Virus record (IMG/VR): IMGVR_UViG_3300027752_000133
Location: 1 to 21,299 of that record
Reading direction: 5' to 3' (one strand)
Source: a virus
DNA length: 21,299 nucleotides
Shown here piece after piece: positions 1,964 through 6,559 of this stretch; the first letter of the stretch is position 1, and every line of letters starts with the position of its first letter. A program made the position numbers and the translations under genes. The notes beneath the pieces were generated by a model. That model searched no databases. It had not been told where the DNA came from and was given only the letters and a program-made list of their open reading frames with translations.

Positions 1964-2602
1964 ATGGCTAATACTGACTTTAAACCGACGATGATCCGAA
2001 ACGTGGAATTTAAGTATCCGAAGTTAAACGGCACTTATCGTTTTAACACAGCTCAAAAACAGAGCGAGGAATGCGCCCCAAGTGCTTCCGGCGCGTCTTA
2101 CTCAATCTCATGGGAAATGCCAAAGGACGAAGCTGGCAAGCTGCACGCTGAATTAAAAGCGCACTATGAAAGTTGCAATCGCACTGAACCGTTCTCAAAA
2201 GTCTTCGGTATGAAGAAGCTTGAAAGCGGAAACTTTGAGTTTCGCGCAAAACGCAACGGCACAAACAGCCAAGGTGTGCTGAACGAAAAGCCTCGCGTGA
2301 TTGATGGCATGAAGCAGCCATTGGCTGACTTGGCATTTTGGGGCGGCTCAAAGGGCAGCATTAAAGCCACAGCGTATCCAGTAACTGACCCAGACGGCAA
2401 TGGCGGCATCAGTTTGCTCATTGACACCGTGCAAGTTACCCACGCGGTCTACGGCGGCGGTGGCTTAGATGACTTTGATGAAGTCGGCACAACTATGCAG
2501 GGTGGACTTGACGCAGCGCTGGACGACTTCGGGCCTGCTGCGGTTGAAACCGTAGCCGCCCCAGCGCCAGCAGCTTTACAGGATGACGAAATACCGTTTT
2601 GA
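1964..2602 (+). CDS. Single-stranded DNA-binding protein (DUF2815/T7 gp2.5-like)
   Basis: The 212-residue protein has a body of roughly 160 residues resembling phage SSBs of the gp2.5/DUF2815 type, including a DLAFWGGSKGSIKATAYPV stretch. A flexible acidic, Gly/Ala/Pro-rich tail of about 50 residues follows. It ends exactly in DDEIPF, close to the bacterial SSB C-terminal tip that docks replication and repair partners. It would coat single-stranded DNA in phage replication and recruit the neighbouring nucleases and helicase. The start has a strong AGGAG (1950-1954), 9 bases from ATG. A 9-bp GC-rich hairpin begins 10 bases after the stop. OB-fold assignment is by resemblance; the tail is directly visible. 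Confidence 0.75.
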   Translation: MANTDFKPTMIRNVEFKYPKLNGTYRFNTAQKQSEECAPSASGASYSISWEMPKDEAGKLHAELKAHYESCNRTEPFSKVFGMKKLESGNFEFRAKRNGTNSQGVLNEKPRVIDGMKQPLADLAFWGGSKGSIKATAYPVTDPDGNGGISLLIDTVQVTHAVYGGGGLDDFDEVGTTMQGGLDAALDDFGPAAVETVAAPAPAALQDDEIPF

Positions 2603-2680: not shown

Positions 2681-4993
2681 ATGAAAACTTTAACAAAAAC
2701 AAGCGACGTTGGCAAGGTTGAGATGCTACTTGCAGCCGGTGCGCTGGACACTCGCATAAACGAAGCCGGTTCACAGTATTCACCAATCAAGCTGAAGGAA
2801 ATCGCGGCACTGGTTGACGAACCGCAGGCCATTGAGAAGTCAAAAGCCGCATTCATTATCCCATCAACTTATCGTGAGCATGACGGAAGAAGCCACGCAG
2901 CCCAACGTGAGCGCGGCGAATACTGGATGCTGGCCATTGACGTGGACGAGGGCGACCCGTCTCTCACAGAGCTGCGCACAGCCGTTGACCGAATCACCGG
3001 CAATGCTTCCTCACTGTTTTATTCGTCAGCCGGGGCCAGCGAAGACAACCGCAAGTGGCGCGCACTTATCCCGCTGTCAGAGCCTATATCGGGTGAGGAT
3101 TACGTTGACGCCCAGTTATCGCTGTTTGAACTGTTAGCCGCCGAAGGTATAACTTGTGACCCAGCATTATCGCGCACCGGTCAGCCAATCTACCTTCCAA
3201 ACGTACCGCCAGCCAAACGCGATGACGCAGGCAACCCTCTATTTTACCACGGCGCACGCAATCGCGGTGACGGCCTGATGGTGCCAAAGGAAAGCACAAT
3301 CTGGGCAAACTTGATTTTTAGGCGGAAGAATGCCGAGATAGCTGAGCAACGTGCCGCCGCCGAGCGTGCAATCAGAGCGCAGCAACGTGAAGAAAAGCAA
3401 AATAAGTTTGGTGAGAGTGATCCAGTTGCCGAGTTTAATCGTAGCAACACGATTGCCGACCTGATGGTCAAGCATGGCTACGAGAAGCAAGGTCGCTCCG
3501 ACAGCTACCGCTCACCAATGCAGACGTCTGGCTCTCACGCCACCAAAGATTTCGGCACGCATTGGGTCAGCCTGTCAGGTTCAGACATGGCGGCGGGCAT
3601 CGGCCAAACCAGCGCAGAGTTCTGCTGGGGCGACGCATTCGACCTTTATTGCTTCTACGAGCATGGGAACGACATGCGGGTGGCTGTCAGGACTTACGCA
3701 GCCGAATTGCGGCCCAGCCCGTTTGAAGAGGTCAAGCAGGCGGCACCAGAGGCCGAATACGAGCCTGATGACGGCTTAGACGACTTTGACACCGTACCAG
3801 AGGCCCAGATTGCGCCAGAGGTCCAACCTAAGCCTACACAGAGGCAGGAATGGCCGACTAGGGTTTTCCGGTTCGATGAGGCAAGTTTACCGCGCAGGCA
3901 GTGGGTTTATGGTCATCACCACATTCGAGGTTTTGTTAGCGTCACGGCATCCGCCGGTGGCATAGGCAAGACTTCGCTTACTATGGTTGAGGCGTTGGCA
4001 GTTGCAACGAATCGGCCATTGCTGAACGAGAAGGTAATTCAGCAGACAAACACTTGGATAATTAATTTAGAGGACGATCTGTCAGAAATGCAATTGCGCT
4101 TGGCAGCGGCCATGAAGCATTACAAGGTCAGCCACGATGACATTGACGGCAAGTTGTTTATGGATGCGGAAGACACAATTGGCATCACGCTGGCCGCTGA
4201 GACGAGGGACGGCATCATCCAAAATGACGCCCTGCTCAACTTAATGCGCGACAAGATCAAAGCCAACAATATTGGTTTAGTCATAATTGACCCATTTGTC
4301 TCAGTTCACCAAGTTAATGAAAACTCAAATATGAGTGTGCAAGTGGTGGTCGCAATGCTGCGCAAGCTGGCCAGAGAGGCCAATGTCGCCATTCACGTCG
4401 TGCATCACGTTAGAAAGGGCAACGGCGTTGACGCTGACATCGATAGCGTCAGAGGCGCAGGCTCACTTATTGGTGCGGCCAGAGCAGCCAGAGTTATCAA
4501 CCGGGTTAGCCTAGAAGACGCAACCGCGCTGGGCGTGCCGGAAGACAGCGCCAGAGGTCTGTTTAGGGTTGATGACGGCAAGGCTAATCTCAGCGCGCCA
4601 GCAGACAAGGCAGTCTACCGGCGCATGATTGGCGTCAAACTCGACAACGAAGAATACATTGGCGTGGCCGTTGAGTTCAACCTGCCAGATCAGTGGTCAG
4701 GCATGTCAACCAGTGTAGTCAACAATATGCTGGCACTCATCGACAAGGGGCCAGAGGATGGCGAGCGCTACTCAATCAGGCCGCAAGACCGGCAGCGTTG
4801 GGTTGGCCTAGTCATCACGGGTTATGTGTTCCCAAACATAGACGACGCGAAGACCAGCGGGCAAGCCAAGTCAATTCTGCGCAAGTGGATGGATGAGGGC
4901 TTGATTGAAGAGCAACAGTATCACAGCCCAAGCCAGCGCAAGGAGCGTGGCGGCGTGATGTCAACAGGTAGAGTTGGGGAGATGGGAATATGA
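2681..4993 (+). CDS. Primase-helicase fusion (AEP-like primase plus RepA/AAA_25 helicase)
   Basis: I place the start at ATG 2681 with GGAGA 10 bases upstream, giving 770 residues. A longer frame would start inside the loop of the preceding hairpin. Residues about 55-210 look like an archaeo-eukaryotic-type primase: D87-x-D89 in AIDVDEGD, KWR at 125-127 and a later CDPALSRTGQPIYLPNVPP segment. Residues about 250-340 resemble a primase-associated zinc-ribbon-like domain that has lost its cysteines (SYRSPMQTSG ... DAFDLYCFYEHGND). Residues about 400-670 form a RecA-fold helicase of the RepA/AAA_25 class, with Walker A ASAGGIGKTS (423-432), Walker B LVIID (D537) and HHVRKG as the sensor region. 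The C-terminus looks like a winged-helix or linker. It would prime and unwind at the fork. The ATGA overlap couples it to the next gene. Confidence 0.8.
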   Translation: MKTLTKTSDVGKVEMLLAAGALDTRINEAGSQYSPIKLKEIAALVDEPQAIEKSKAAFIIPSTYREHDGRSHAAQRERGEYWMLAIDVDEGDPSLTELRTAVDRITGNASSLFYSSAGASEDNRKWRALIPLSEPISGEDYVDAQLSLFELLAAEGITCDPALSRTGQPIYLPNVPPAKRDDAGNPLFYHGARNRGDGLMVPKESTIWANLIFRRKNAEIAEQRAAAERAIRAQQREEKQNKFGESDPVAEFNRSNTIADLMVKHGYEKQGRSDSYRSPMQTSGSHATKDFGTHWVSLSGSDMAAGIGQTSAEFCWGDAFDLYCFYEHGNDMRVAVRTYAAELRPSPFEEVKQAAPEAEYEPDDGLDDFDTVPEAQIAPEVQPKPTQRQEWPTRVFRFDEASLPRRQWVYGHHHIRGFVSVTASAGGIGKTSLTMVEALAVATNRPLLNEKVIQQTNTWIINLEDDLSEMQLRLAAAMKHYKVSHDDIDGKLFMDAEDTIGITLAAETRDGIIQNDALLNLMRDKIKANNIGLVIIDPFVSVHQVNENSNMSVQVVVAMLRKLAREANVAIHVVHHVRKGNGVDADIDSVRGAGSLIGAARAARVINRVSLEDATALGVPEDSARGLFRVDDGKANLSAPADKAVYRRMIGVKLDNEEYIGVAVEFNLPDQWSGMSTSVVNNMLALIDKGPEDGERYSIRPQDRQRWVGLVITGYVFPNIDDAKTSGQAKSILRKWMDEGLIEEQQYHSPSQRKERGGVMSTGRVGEMGI

Positions 4994-5322
4994 GTATAGT
5001 TGGATGGACAGGGGACTCTAAAGATTGCTTTCACAGGTATCACGACAGAAAGGAAAAAGAAAACGCGCTTGAGTTTACTTGGTTCGCAAACAGCAACCCA
5101 AGTCTTGAGTTTTATTGGCCAAATCGTGACAAGGCTCCGTGGCACATCCAGTGCGTCACCAAGATAGGCGATGACGACGTTGAGATGAACTTCTGGCCAC
5201 ACAAGTCAAAAGGACAGTTTAAGTACGAGAAGGCCATTGAGCCGTTGAGCGCGTTTATCTATGAGCTAAGAAAACGGATCAATGAAGCCGAAAGAGAAGA
5301 AGATTTTGATGTCGTTGAGTAG
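4990..5322 (+). CDS. Hypothetical protein coupled to the primase-helicase
   Basis: This 110-residue protein starts in an ATGA overlap with the primase-helicase stop and so is probably translationally coupled to it. It is rich in tryptophan and other aromatics (WTGDS, FTWFAN, FYWPN, APWHIQ, NFWPH) in a pattern suggesting a small beta-sheet domain. A basic helix, AFIYELRKRINEAEREED, follows, and the end is acidic. I do not recognise the family, and no catalytic motif or membrane segment is visible. Its position between a replicative helicase and a repeat cluster makes a replication accessory role reasonable, but this is context only. The first repeat of the downstream cluster begins within its stop codon. 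Confidence 0.65.
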   Translation: MSIVGWTGDSKDCFHRYHDRKEKENALEFTWFANSNPSLEFYWPNRDKAPWHIQCVTKIGDDDVEMNFWPHKSKGQFKYEKAIEPLSAFIYELRKRINEAEREEDFDVVE

Positions 5323-5486
5323 TGCGCCAGTGGATTTTCTCAGTGGCGCACCAGTGGCGCGACTGGCGCATTTGGCTGAAAGCCGTGAAATTAAGGGTGA
5401 TTCGGAAATATCGCAAACACCTTATTTATATAGTGCGCCACTGGATTTACTGAATTTCCTCCGGAAATTTACACCCAGTGGCGCAC
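5322..5486. repeat. Cluster of six CCAGTGGCGCAC elements, candidate origin or control site
   Basis: Six copies of a roughly 12-base element with consensus CCAGTGGCGCAC lie in 165 bases: minus orientation at 5322-5333 and 5433-5444; plus orientation at 5341-5351, 5351-5360 (truncated), 5362-5370 (one change) and 5475-5486. The 19 bases at 5322-5340 recur at 5433-5451 with two differences. The last two copies form a perfect 13-bp inverted repeat (5432-5444 with 5475-5487) that encloses AATTTCC-TCC-GGAAATT (5453-5469). An AT-rich TTATTTATATA patch sits at 5422-5432. Iteron-like repeats beside an AT-rich patch, directly after SSB and primase-helicase genes, are what a replication origin would look like. 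A cluster of regulator-binding sites is the alternative. Confidence 0.6.
5453..5469. repeat. Inner palindrome of the nested hairpin
   Basis: AATTTCC, a 3-base spacer and GGAAATT form a perfect 7-bp inverted repeat. It is enclosed by the 13-bp inverted repeat 5432-5444/5475-5487, so the strand could fold as a long interrupted hairpin or cruciform of 56 bases. Confidence 0.5.
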
Positions 5487-5505
5487 TTTGTCAAGACGCA
5501 GGTCT

Positions 5506-5541
5506 AAAAAGAGTTGGCCAATGCCAACACTCTCTTTTTTT
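5506..5541. terminator. Probable bidirectional intrinsic terminator
   Basis: AAAAAGAG and TTGGC on the left (5506-5518) pair with GCCAA and CTCTTTTT on the right, across a CAAT loop and a short CACT bulge. A T-run at 5535-5541 lies on the + strand and an A-run at 5506-5510 gives a T-run on the other strand. It would end rightward transcription coming out of the repeat cluster, and could also stop leftward transcription. Confidence 0.6.
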
Positions 5542-5565
5542 GAGACGACCAGCAGCGCCATTGCC

Positions 5566-5593
5566 GGGGCTTTCTTGGCTGACGCCAAGCCCC
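5566..5593. repeat. Hairpin upstream of the gene at 5664
   Basis: GGGGCTT (5566-5572) pairs with AAGCCCC (5587-5593), and an inner GGC-TGAC-GCC extends the stem after a 4-base bulge. No T-run follows. It lies between the terminator at 5541 and the start at 5664. The remaining 5594-5663 is GGTTGG-rich with no convincing promoter, so the hairpin may be a leader structure or part of the presumed origin. Confidence 0.4.
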
Positions 5594-5663
5594 GTCAAAG
5601 TCGCAGTTTTGCGTCCTTGCTTCGGTTGGCAGGGTTGGAATAGGTTAAAAGGGTTGGTCCACA

Positions 5664-6260
5664 ATGGTTAATAAAGTTAAAGCAGGAAAGCCAAAGTCGG
5701 CATCAGCTAAAGCGGCGATGGCCAATCGTGGTAAGTTTGAAAGTAAGCACACTAACTACGGTGAGCCGGTCCACTACAAGGTAGCAGCGGCAGTGGTCCC
5801 GTTTAGTGCCGCGTCGGCTAAGGCGGCAATGGTCTGGGGTGATACGCTGGTTGAGAGTGTGCCGCCAGCTTACGCGCTGCGCTACAGAGAGCTGAAGGGT
5901 GATCTGGACGCCGCCATGATGACAGACAATTACACGCTCTGTGCGGAGTTGGCTGCGTCTCTCATAAAGGCGCTCAAGATGATGAATGAGAAAGCAAGGG
6001 TCGACGGCTTCAAGCCGCCGCAAGTTGATGGCCATATCGTTGAATGGGGCGGCAAGATATATTGCTTCCTCGCCAGCGGTGATCTGGCCGCAGTGCGCAA
6101 GGCTAGGCCGACGTGGGCCGTGTATCATCTGAGCGACGTGTGCGCCGTCCTAAGCGTGCGCACAGACGAGATGATGGCCGCAGTGGTAGACAAGTTTCCC
6201 AACGCCAAGATTGTTGACGTTAGGTTGTATGATGATGAAATCCCATTTGGGCATGATTGA
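5664..6260 (+). CDS. Hypothetical protein with a near-terminal DDEIPF motif
   Basis: I do not recognise this 198-residue protein. The N-terminus is basic and repeats a short element, SASAKAAM near residue 12 and SAASAKAAM near residue 48, suggesting a flexible or duplicated start. The middle (residues about 60-115) is helical with MMTDNYTLCAELAASLIKALKMMNEKA. The rest looks like a small alpha/beta domain (HIVEWGGKIYCFLASGDLAAVRKARPTWAVYHLSDVCAV). It ends DDEIPFGHD, repeating the SSB tip found at 2602 but three residues from the end. The start ATG has only a weak AAGGG about 10 bases upstream, so expression may be low or controlled by the structured leader. It precedes a DUF6378-like gene by 11 bases, probably in one transcript. 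Function unknown. Confidence 0.65.
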   Translation: MVNKVKAGKPKSASAKAAMANRGKFESKHTNYGEPVHYKVAAAVVPFSAASAKAAMVWGDTLVESVPPAYALRYRELKGDLDAAMMTDNYTLCAELAASLIKALKMMNEKARVDGFKPPQVDGHIVEWGGKIYCFLASGDLAAVRKARPTWAVYHLSDVCAVLSVRTDEMMAAVVDKFPNAKIVDVRLYDDEIPFGHD

Positions 6261-6271
6261 AGGAAGATAAG

Positions 6272-6559
6272 ATGAAACGTGACGAAATACTCAAGAGCGC
6301 CGGTCACTTGATAAGCAAGGATCGACACGACACATACGGAGACAGCGCGACGTCTCACAGCCGCATAGCTGCGTTCTGGTCAACTTATCTAGGCGTGGAG
6401 CTTAGCGCAGTTGACGTGGCATCCATGATGGTGCTGATGAAGGTCAGCAGAAGTATCGGCGGGTCAGCCTCGCCGCATCTCGACAACTTCGTGGATATTT
6501 GTGGGTATGCGGCGTTGGCCGGTGAGATGGCCGCTGACAGCTCAAAGGATGCCGGGTGA
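6272..6559 (+). CDS. DUF6378-like phage protein
   Basis: The 95-residue protein matches the phage DUF6378 pattern almost end to end: MKRDEILKSAGHLI, then DRHDTYGDSATSHSRIAAFW, a long helix DVASMMVLMKVSRS, then PHLDNFVDICGYAALAGE. Conserved His, Asp and Glu residues suggest metal binding, and the helical layout resembles small nucleotide-pyrophosphohydrolase-type folds, but no activity is established to my knowledge. ATG 6272 is chosen because AAGGA lies 7 bases upstream; a TTG at 6257 would overlap the previous stop and has poorer support. It is the last gene before a strong terminator (6648-6686), closing the early or middle transcript. Confidence 0.75.
   Translation: MKRDEILKSAGHLISKDRHDTYGDSATSHSRIAAFWSTYLGVELSAVDVASMMVLMKVSRSIGGSASPHLDNFVDICGYAALAGEMAADSSKDAG

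Follow-up and report, generated by a model that had tools for sequence, protein, structure and literature searches.

The stretch analysed here, hereafter the window, comprises all 21,299 nucleotides of the IMG/VR virus record IMGVR_UViG_3300027752_000133 and carries a dense array of short repeats at 5322-5486, downstream of a primase-helicase gene. This locus raises the question of what the array does and which protein reads it. Our answer, of high confidence, is that the phage starts its replication at this array and that its own primase-helicase, encoded upstream, docks on the sites through a C-terminal winged helix.

The array consists of CCASTGGCGCAC sites in inverted and direct arrangement, and the window has no second cluster of this kind. 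The site set was defined as five copies with at most two mismatches from CCAGTGGCGCAC, plus one degenerate site. The proposed initiator sites are S1 (5322-5333, minus strand, CCACTGGCGCAC), which is conserved in clade A and has TGACGC in clade B, S2 (5340-5351, plus strand, TCAGTGGCGCAC), S3 (5351-5362, plus strand, CCAGTGGCGCGA), which lies one helical turn past S2, S5 (5433-5444, minus strand) and S6 (5475-5486, plus strand). S5 and S6 both read CCAGTGGCGCAC and form the left and right arm, respectively, of a perfect 13-bp inverted repeat (5432-5444 and 5475-5487). The degenerate site S4 (5360-5371, plus strand, CGACTGGCGCAT) has at least three mismatches from CCAGTGGCGCAC and is a member only when scored against the C variant; relatives have it at offset 62, and its clade B counterpart is GTGACGCA. 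A preliminary description had listed six elements in both orientations, a near-duplicate (5322-5340 and 5433-5451) with two differences, the 13-bp inverted repeat enclosing a second palindrome and an AT-rich patch. All of these were recovered, the sixth element, S4, being weaker than the others. Matches to CCAGTGGCGCAC with up to two mismatches occur ten times in the whole window, compared to a mean of 2.39 in shuffled sequences; none of 100 shuffles reached ten, and five of the ten matches sit inside 165 bp. When the window was cut into 350-bp tiles, five copies of a 10-mer turned up nowhere else, and the runner-up, with four copies, is a GGT-repeat coding run.

Further elements lie within and beside the array. 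The AT-rich patch TTATTTATATA (5422-5432) is conserved in clade B and is a candidate unwinding element. Between S5 and S6 lies the inner palindrome AATTTCC-TCC-GGAAATT (AATTTCCTCCGGAAATT, 5453-5469), which reads AATTTTCC-TAC-GGAAAATT in clade B, so that both arms are longer in parallel. An intrinsic terminator follows 3' of the array (5513-5541, plus strand, GTTGGCCAATGCCAAC plus a T run); its stem is GTTCGC/GCGAAC in clade B, a compensated change with respect to clade A. Paired changes between the two clades are seen in the inner palindrome and in the terminator alike. A promoter-like sequence, TTGACA-17-TAAATT (5466-5494, minus strand), points left into the array with S6 inside its spacer. 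Two such matches were found where 0.5 were expected from shuffles, and the TTGACA box over S6 is common to clades A, B and C. This leftward element could give a primer or an activating transcript, or it could be an autoregulated promoter. In many arrays of other lineages (L041, L113, L199 and others) a short perfect hairpin of CCCCTATAGGGG type is found where the window has AATTTCCTCCGGAAATT. An overlapping ORF of 129 amino acids (5282-5671) is read as probably non-coding because it spans the repeats, which vary between clades repeat-wise and not codon-wise.

The preliminary description had placed the array directly after the genes for a single-stranded DNA-binding protein (SSB) and the primase-helicase. 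The primase-helicase gene does end upstream, at 4993, about 330 bp before the array, but the nearest preceding gene is an ORF of 110 residues (4990-5322, plus strand), for which no family match was found. This ORF is an indel hot spot: it is deleted in L007 and L008, and about 600 extra bases precede it in L013, L024, L026 and L028. The SSB is Gp2.5-like (1964-2602, plus strand; PHROG 112, 1.5e-11). A RusA/PDDEXK-like nuclease and an exonuclease VIII-like gene come before it (396-1946), which suggests that recombination functions share the early operon with the SSB. Downstream of the array, a protein of 198 residues (5664-6260, plus strand) is followed by a DUF6378 protein of 100 amino acids (6257-6559); the latter is called 'phosphofructokinase' in PHROGs and in deposited phage records, a name which looks wrong for its size.

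The proposed initiator, the primase-helicase (2681-4993, plus strand), has 770 amino acids and comprises an N-terminal domain, a RepA/DnaB-like helicase and a C-terminal winged helix. Its helicase domain corresponds to Pfam AAA_25 (2.7e-35), and the Pfam matches of the helicase are to RecA-fold families only (AAA_25, DnaB_C and AAA_24). RSF1010 RepA (1g8y) is the closest solved helicase by profile (4.2e-15) and the best fold match, too. The N-terminal domain, in which a basis for the primase label was sought, had no match in Pfam or PDB; D87, D89, S116 and K125-R127 are conserved in it. The C-terminal 110 residues were modelled as a winged helix (mean pLDDT 89.6, pTM 0.80). The predicted domain (residues 677-761; 4709-4963, plus strand) has the order HHH-beta-wing-beta, with helices at 677-689, 709-713 and 726-738 and strands at 742-749 and 754-761. 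Fold matches of this model to solved structures were mostly winged-helix proteins, with the BLM RQC domain first, followed by PadR, RTP and MarR types; the best match had an E-value of 0.018 and none was below 0.01. In relatives, the corresponding wing covaries with the repeats, which points to the wing tip QRKER (residues 752-756; 4934-4948, plus strand) as the putative base-reading segment.

Relatives keeping the genes and lacking a repeat array had been named beforehand as the observation that would speak against an origin. The primase-helicase has 63 relatives in IMG/VR, and profile searches added more. Non-redundant relatives whose C-terminus is complete number 119, and most of them have an array within about 1.6 kb downstream, with a count above that of shuffles. 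At least five copies of one 9-mer per 260-bp tile were found within 1.6 kb downstream in 58 of 70 relatives, compared to 10 of 1159 background tiles. The relatives do, therefore, have arrays, although no clear array was seen in L083, L085-L087 and L185. L083, which has a QRR wing, was accordingly dropped as an independent case of TGACGC, and the arrays of L085-L087 were left out as too weak. The motif is lineage-specific (TGGCGC, TGACGC, TGGCGG, GGTG-N-GG, GTATAAAA, TACGATTT, CTACATAT, TTGTATGA and others). In clade B, which is 78% identical, the layout is kept and every copy has changed from TGGCGC to TGACGC. A Microcystis phage protein with no more than 28% identity over its helicase has the same QRKER wing, and ACTGGCGC repeats come after it. 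Loci L199-L204 come from contigs of bacterial genomes (Acetobacteraceae, Sphingomonas, Bradyrhizobium, Pelagerythrobacter) and are presumably prophages; their downstream arrays have further motifs, e.g., GTGGAGCA.

Three candidates had been considered as the initiator: the primase-helicase, the 110-residue protein and the 198-residue protein. The 110-residue protein was excluded as the binder since the close relatives L007 and L008 are without it and have an unchanged array; it appears to be a dispensable part of the locus. The 198-residue protein was excluded on the basis of L042 and L043, which retain it (84-88% identity) beside an unrelated array. These two also keep, with high identity, the SSB and the first approximately 345 codons of the primase-helicase, whereas the helicase half is different. 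Their DNA identity with the window stops at 3714 and returns at 5704-5706. Comparison of L018 with L045 and L046 (clade B) gave the same breakpoints, one at codon 345 and one where the 198-residue gene starts. Since the breakpoints match in two backgrounds, array and helicase half travel as one exchangeable cassette (3715-5705), which contains the helicase, the winged helix, the 110-residue ORF, the array and the terminator and leaves the 198-residue gene outside. Loss of the 110-residue protein with retention of the array, the cassette exchanges and the concerted change in clade B together lead to the conclusion that the binder is very probably the helicase half of the primase-helicase, acting through its C-terminal winged helix.

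In the largest related subfamily, which has GGTG-X-GG repeats, the wing residue before 'GR' tracks the base X. A rule was fixed on loci up to L204 (T or A to T, Q to A, K or R to G, D to C) and fitted 37 of 37 cases among these loci of origin. A held-out set of 82 later loci offered 46 proteins that could be scored, and the rule was right for 32 of these. Thirteen of the 14 misses belong to one clade with K-G-G for K-G-R, in which the next arginine is replaced by glycine and the base is T; the other miss has R, a residue which is ambiguous as it goes with either base outcome. A naive K-to-G rule was rejected, being broken by the 13 K-G-G proteins. The clade, with TGTGG repeats, comprises L248, L252, L262, L264, L265, L270-L273, L276, L281, L284 and L285. 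Residues outside the rule were N with C (two cases), S with T (two) and H with T (three). Arrays more than 900 bp downstream took a wider search, and the blind calls on arrays beyond the first search range were correct in four of four cases (L135, L187, L194, L132). For L116, the base was read off the GGTGGGAA array of this locus.

On a tree of the helicase domain only, i.e., without the winged helix, the base X needs 24 changes. Independent differing pairs on supported branches all agreed with the prediction: Q/A 6-0 (p = 0.03), K/G 4-0, D,N/C 3-0, and 8-0 (p = 0.008) for a T class pooling T, A, S, H and K-G-G, of which S, H and K-G-G were assigned post hoc. Among 329 columns, the wing column has the top normalised mutual information with X. 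The pairs Q-A, K-G and D-C are textbook amino acid-base contacts. The code was derived from this GGTG subfamily and not from the window's own subfamily with the QRK wing, in which only single-event switches were seen (QRK with TGGCGC, QRR with TGACGC, QYK with TGGCGG), and the differences of clade B affect the recognition helix (K to Q and M to N) as well as the wing, so that either may contain the reading residue there. X probably corresponds to the base which differs between AGTG-G-CGCA in clade A and AGTG-A-CGCA in clade B. Across relatives, the repeat and the predicted DNA-binding domain change in step, mostly by a rule of one amino acid to one base. In the literature searched, with most subscription journals beyond reach, no paper on the arrays of this primase-helicase family or on the residue-base rule was found.

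Other explanations for the array were weighed against these data. Repeats of 10-12 bases can arise randomly, but chance or low-complexity repeats are refuted by the comparative data, i.e., by a layout conserved in relatives with concerted sequence change, in addition to the shuffles, and their probability is negligible. A site for partition, packaging or recombination, carried along as a passenger of the replication cassette, is hardly more credible: such sites can have inverted repeat arrays as well and the region is a recombination boundary, yet the covariation of residue and base with the helicase wing would be left unexplained. A different reader, either another phage protein (of 110 or 198 residues) or a host protein, is quite improbable. 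The genes of both small proteins do adjoin the array; however, the array persists in L007 and L008 without the former, the latter stands beside a different array in L042 and L043, and arrays track the helicase C-terminus over very different phages and hosts. Nor would a host reader account for a motif that changed 24 times in connection with a wing residue of the phage.

An operator deserves somewhat more weight but is still unlikely. The primase-helicase, or its winged helix, would then regulate transcription, e.g., from the leftward promoter-like sequence (5494-5466), instead of starting replication. The overlap of TTGACA-17-TAAATT with S6, the persistence of TTGACA across clades A, B and C, the intrinsic terminator 3' of the array and the position of the array at the end of an operon are in favour of this. 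On the other hand, the promoter touches only one of the six sites, other lineages have the array without the TTGACA box, multiple copies around an AT-rich tract and a palindrome, with a self-loading helicase encoded alongside, are how origins are built, and the proposed binder is the replicative helicase itself. Given the overlap of S6 with the conserved promoter-like sequence, some of the array sites may serve transcription control.

For the array as a whole, we infer origin function from anatomy and precedent, and comparison with relatives strongly supports the earlier proposal of an origin with initiator sites. The check by GC skew suggested in the preliminary description turned out weakly supportive. 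In six of six long IMG/VR genomes, which are partly related to each other, the detrended minimum and the array are 0.2-1.9 kb apart. The distance is 4.6-5.9 kb in CRP-811/821, two cultured relatives with the array at 4.4 kb and 3.3 kb of their records. One-sided gene orientation dominates the skew, so that the minimum is near the array only after detrending. In the proposed mechanism, subunits of the primase-helicase would occupy sites facing outwards and inwards, the tandem ones being one helical turn apart. Docking would build RepA-type helicase rings around TTATTTATATA and around the inner palindrome, which S5 and S6 flank. These rings would melt the DNA and load themselves, and the N-terminal domain would make primers. 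The wing would read the one base that varies within the motif (AGTG-X-CGCA in the window), and an initiator could therefore not change without its origin; matched point changes and transfer of the complete cassette would be the two routes.

Several known systems share parts of this plan. Like RSF1010 (IncQ) RepA, the window protein has a RecA-fold RepA helicase domain, by sequence and by fold, and the oriV of RSF1010 contains iterons plus an AT-rich tract plus palindromes. In RSF1010, RepA, RepB' and RepC are separate and RepC is the iteron binder, whereas in the window the predicted DNA-binding domain is fused to the helicase. The helicase of the P4 alpha protein is of the SF3 type; that of the window matches AAA_25 and RSF1010 RepA instead. 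With P4 alpha (ori, crr) the window protein nevertheless shares, as predicted, the union of a primase, a helicase and origin binding in a single chain, and iterons occur in both (PMC4234260); the P4 alpha primase is of the bacterial TOPRIM type (PMC4234260). ORF904 of pRN1 is a fused primase-helicase with a C-terminal winged helix, and replication of pRN1 requires DNA just 3' of the gene (PMC4234260). Unlike the window, pRN1 has a 100-bp stem-loop, no iterons and an SF3 helicase.

The layout is also like that of SaPI Rep/ori and of SCCmec Cch2 with its AAGTG iterons, in which a self-loading initiator helicase has a C-terminal DNA-binding domain and an iteron origin downstream of its gene, as predicted here; for SaPI Rep and Cch2, the C-terminal domain binds iterons directly downstream of its own gene (PMC7581432). 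The window has the downstream repeat cluster, the (modelled) C-terminal DNA-binding domain and a repeat matched to that domain. Its helicase, in a marine phage, is of the RecA-fold type of RSF1010 RepA and DnaB with a fused N-terminal domain; neither DUF927 nor a Primase_Cterm/D5 helicase, as in the SaPI Rep family proper, was found in it. In the PLE satellites of Vibrio cholerae, the DNA-binding domain of RepA varies in step with the iterons of ori, and both move between satellites as one module; that cognate partners belong together was determined experimentally (PMC8263062). PLE RepA is a RepA_N-domain initiator and not a helicase, and the passages of PMC8263062 considered here report no residue-to-base rule. 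We read the locus of the window as an iteron-type origin whose proposed partner is a fused primase and RepA-type helicase, with the winged helix as the repeat reader.

Few phage origins in uncultured genomes are recognisable by sequence. Here, DNA alone gives a predicted origin and its initiator for roughly a hundred phages, and for one subfamily it also gives the residue that probably does the reading. The pairing of residue and base makes the origin choice of a phage readable and testable, may help to build orthogonal replicons and is a direct test of the long-standing puzzle of how initiator and origin can change together without loss of function. On balance, we favour a picture of fast-evolving origin specificities, in which one wing-tip residue sets one repeat base in nearly a four-letter code (Q-A, K-G, T/A/S/H-T, D/N-C), and stepwise point changes plus cassette exchange make many mutually incompatible origin types; the driver would probably be competition with phages or satellites which exploit or attack origins. 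The fast turnover of origin types hints at a conflict between phage and parasite over replication, as shown for ICP1 and PLE (PMC8263062).
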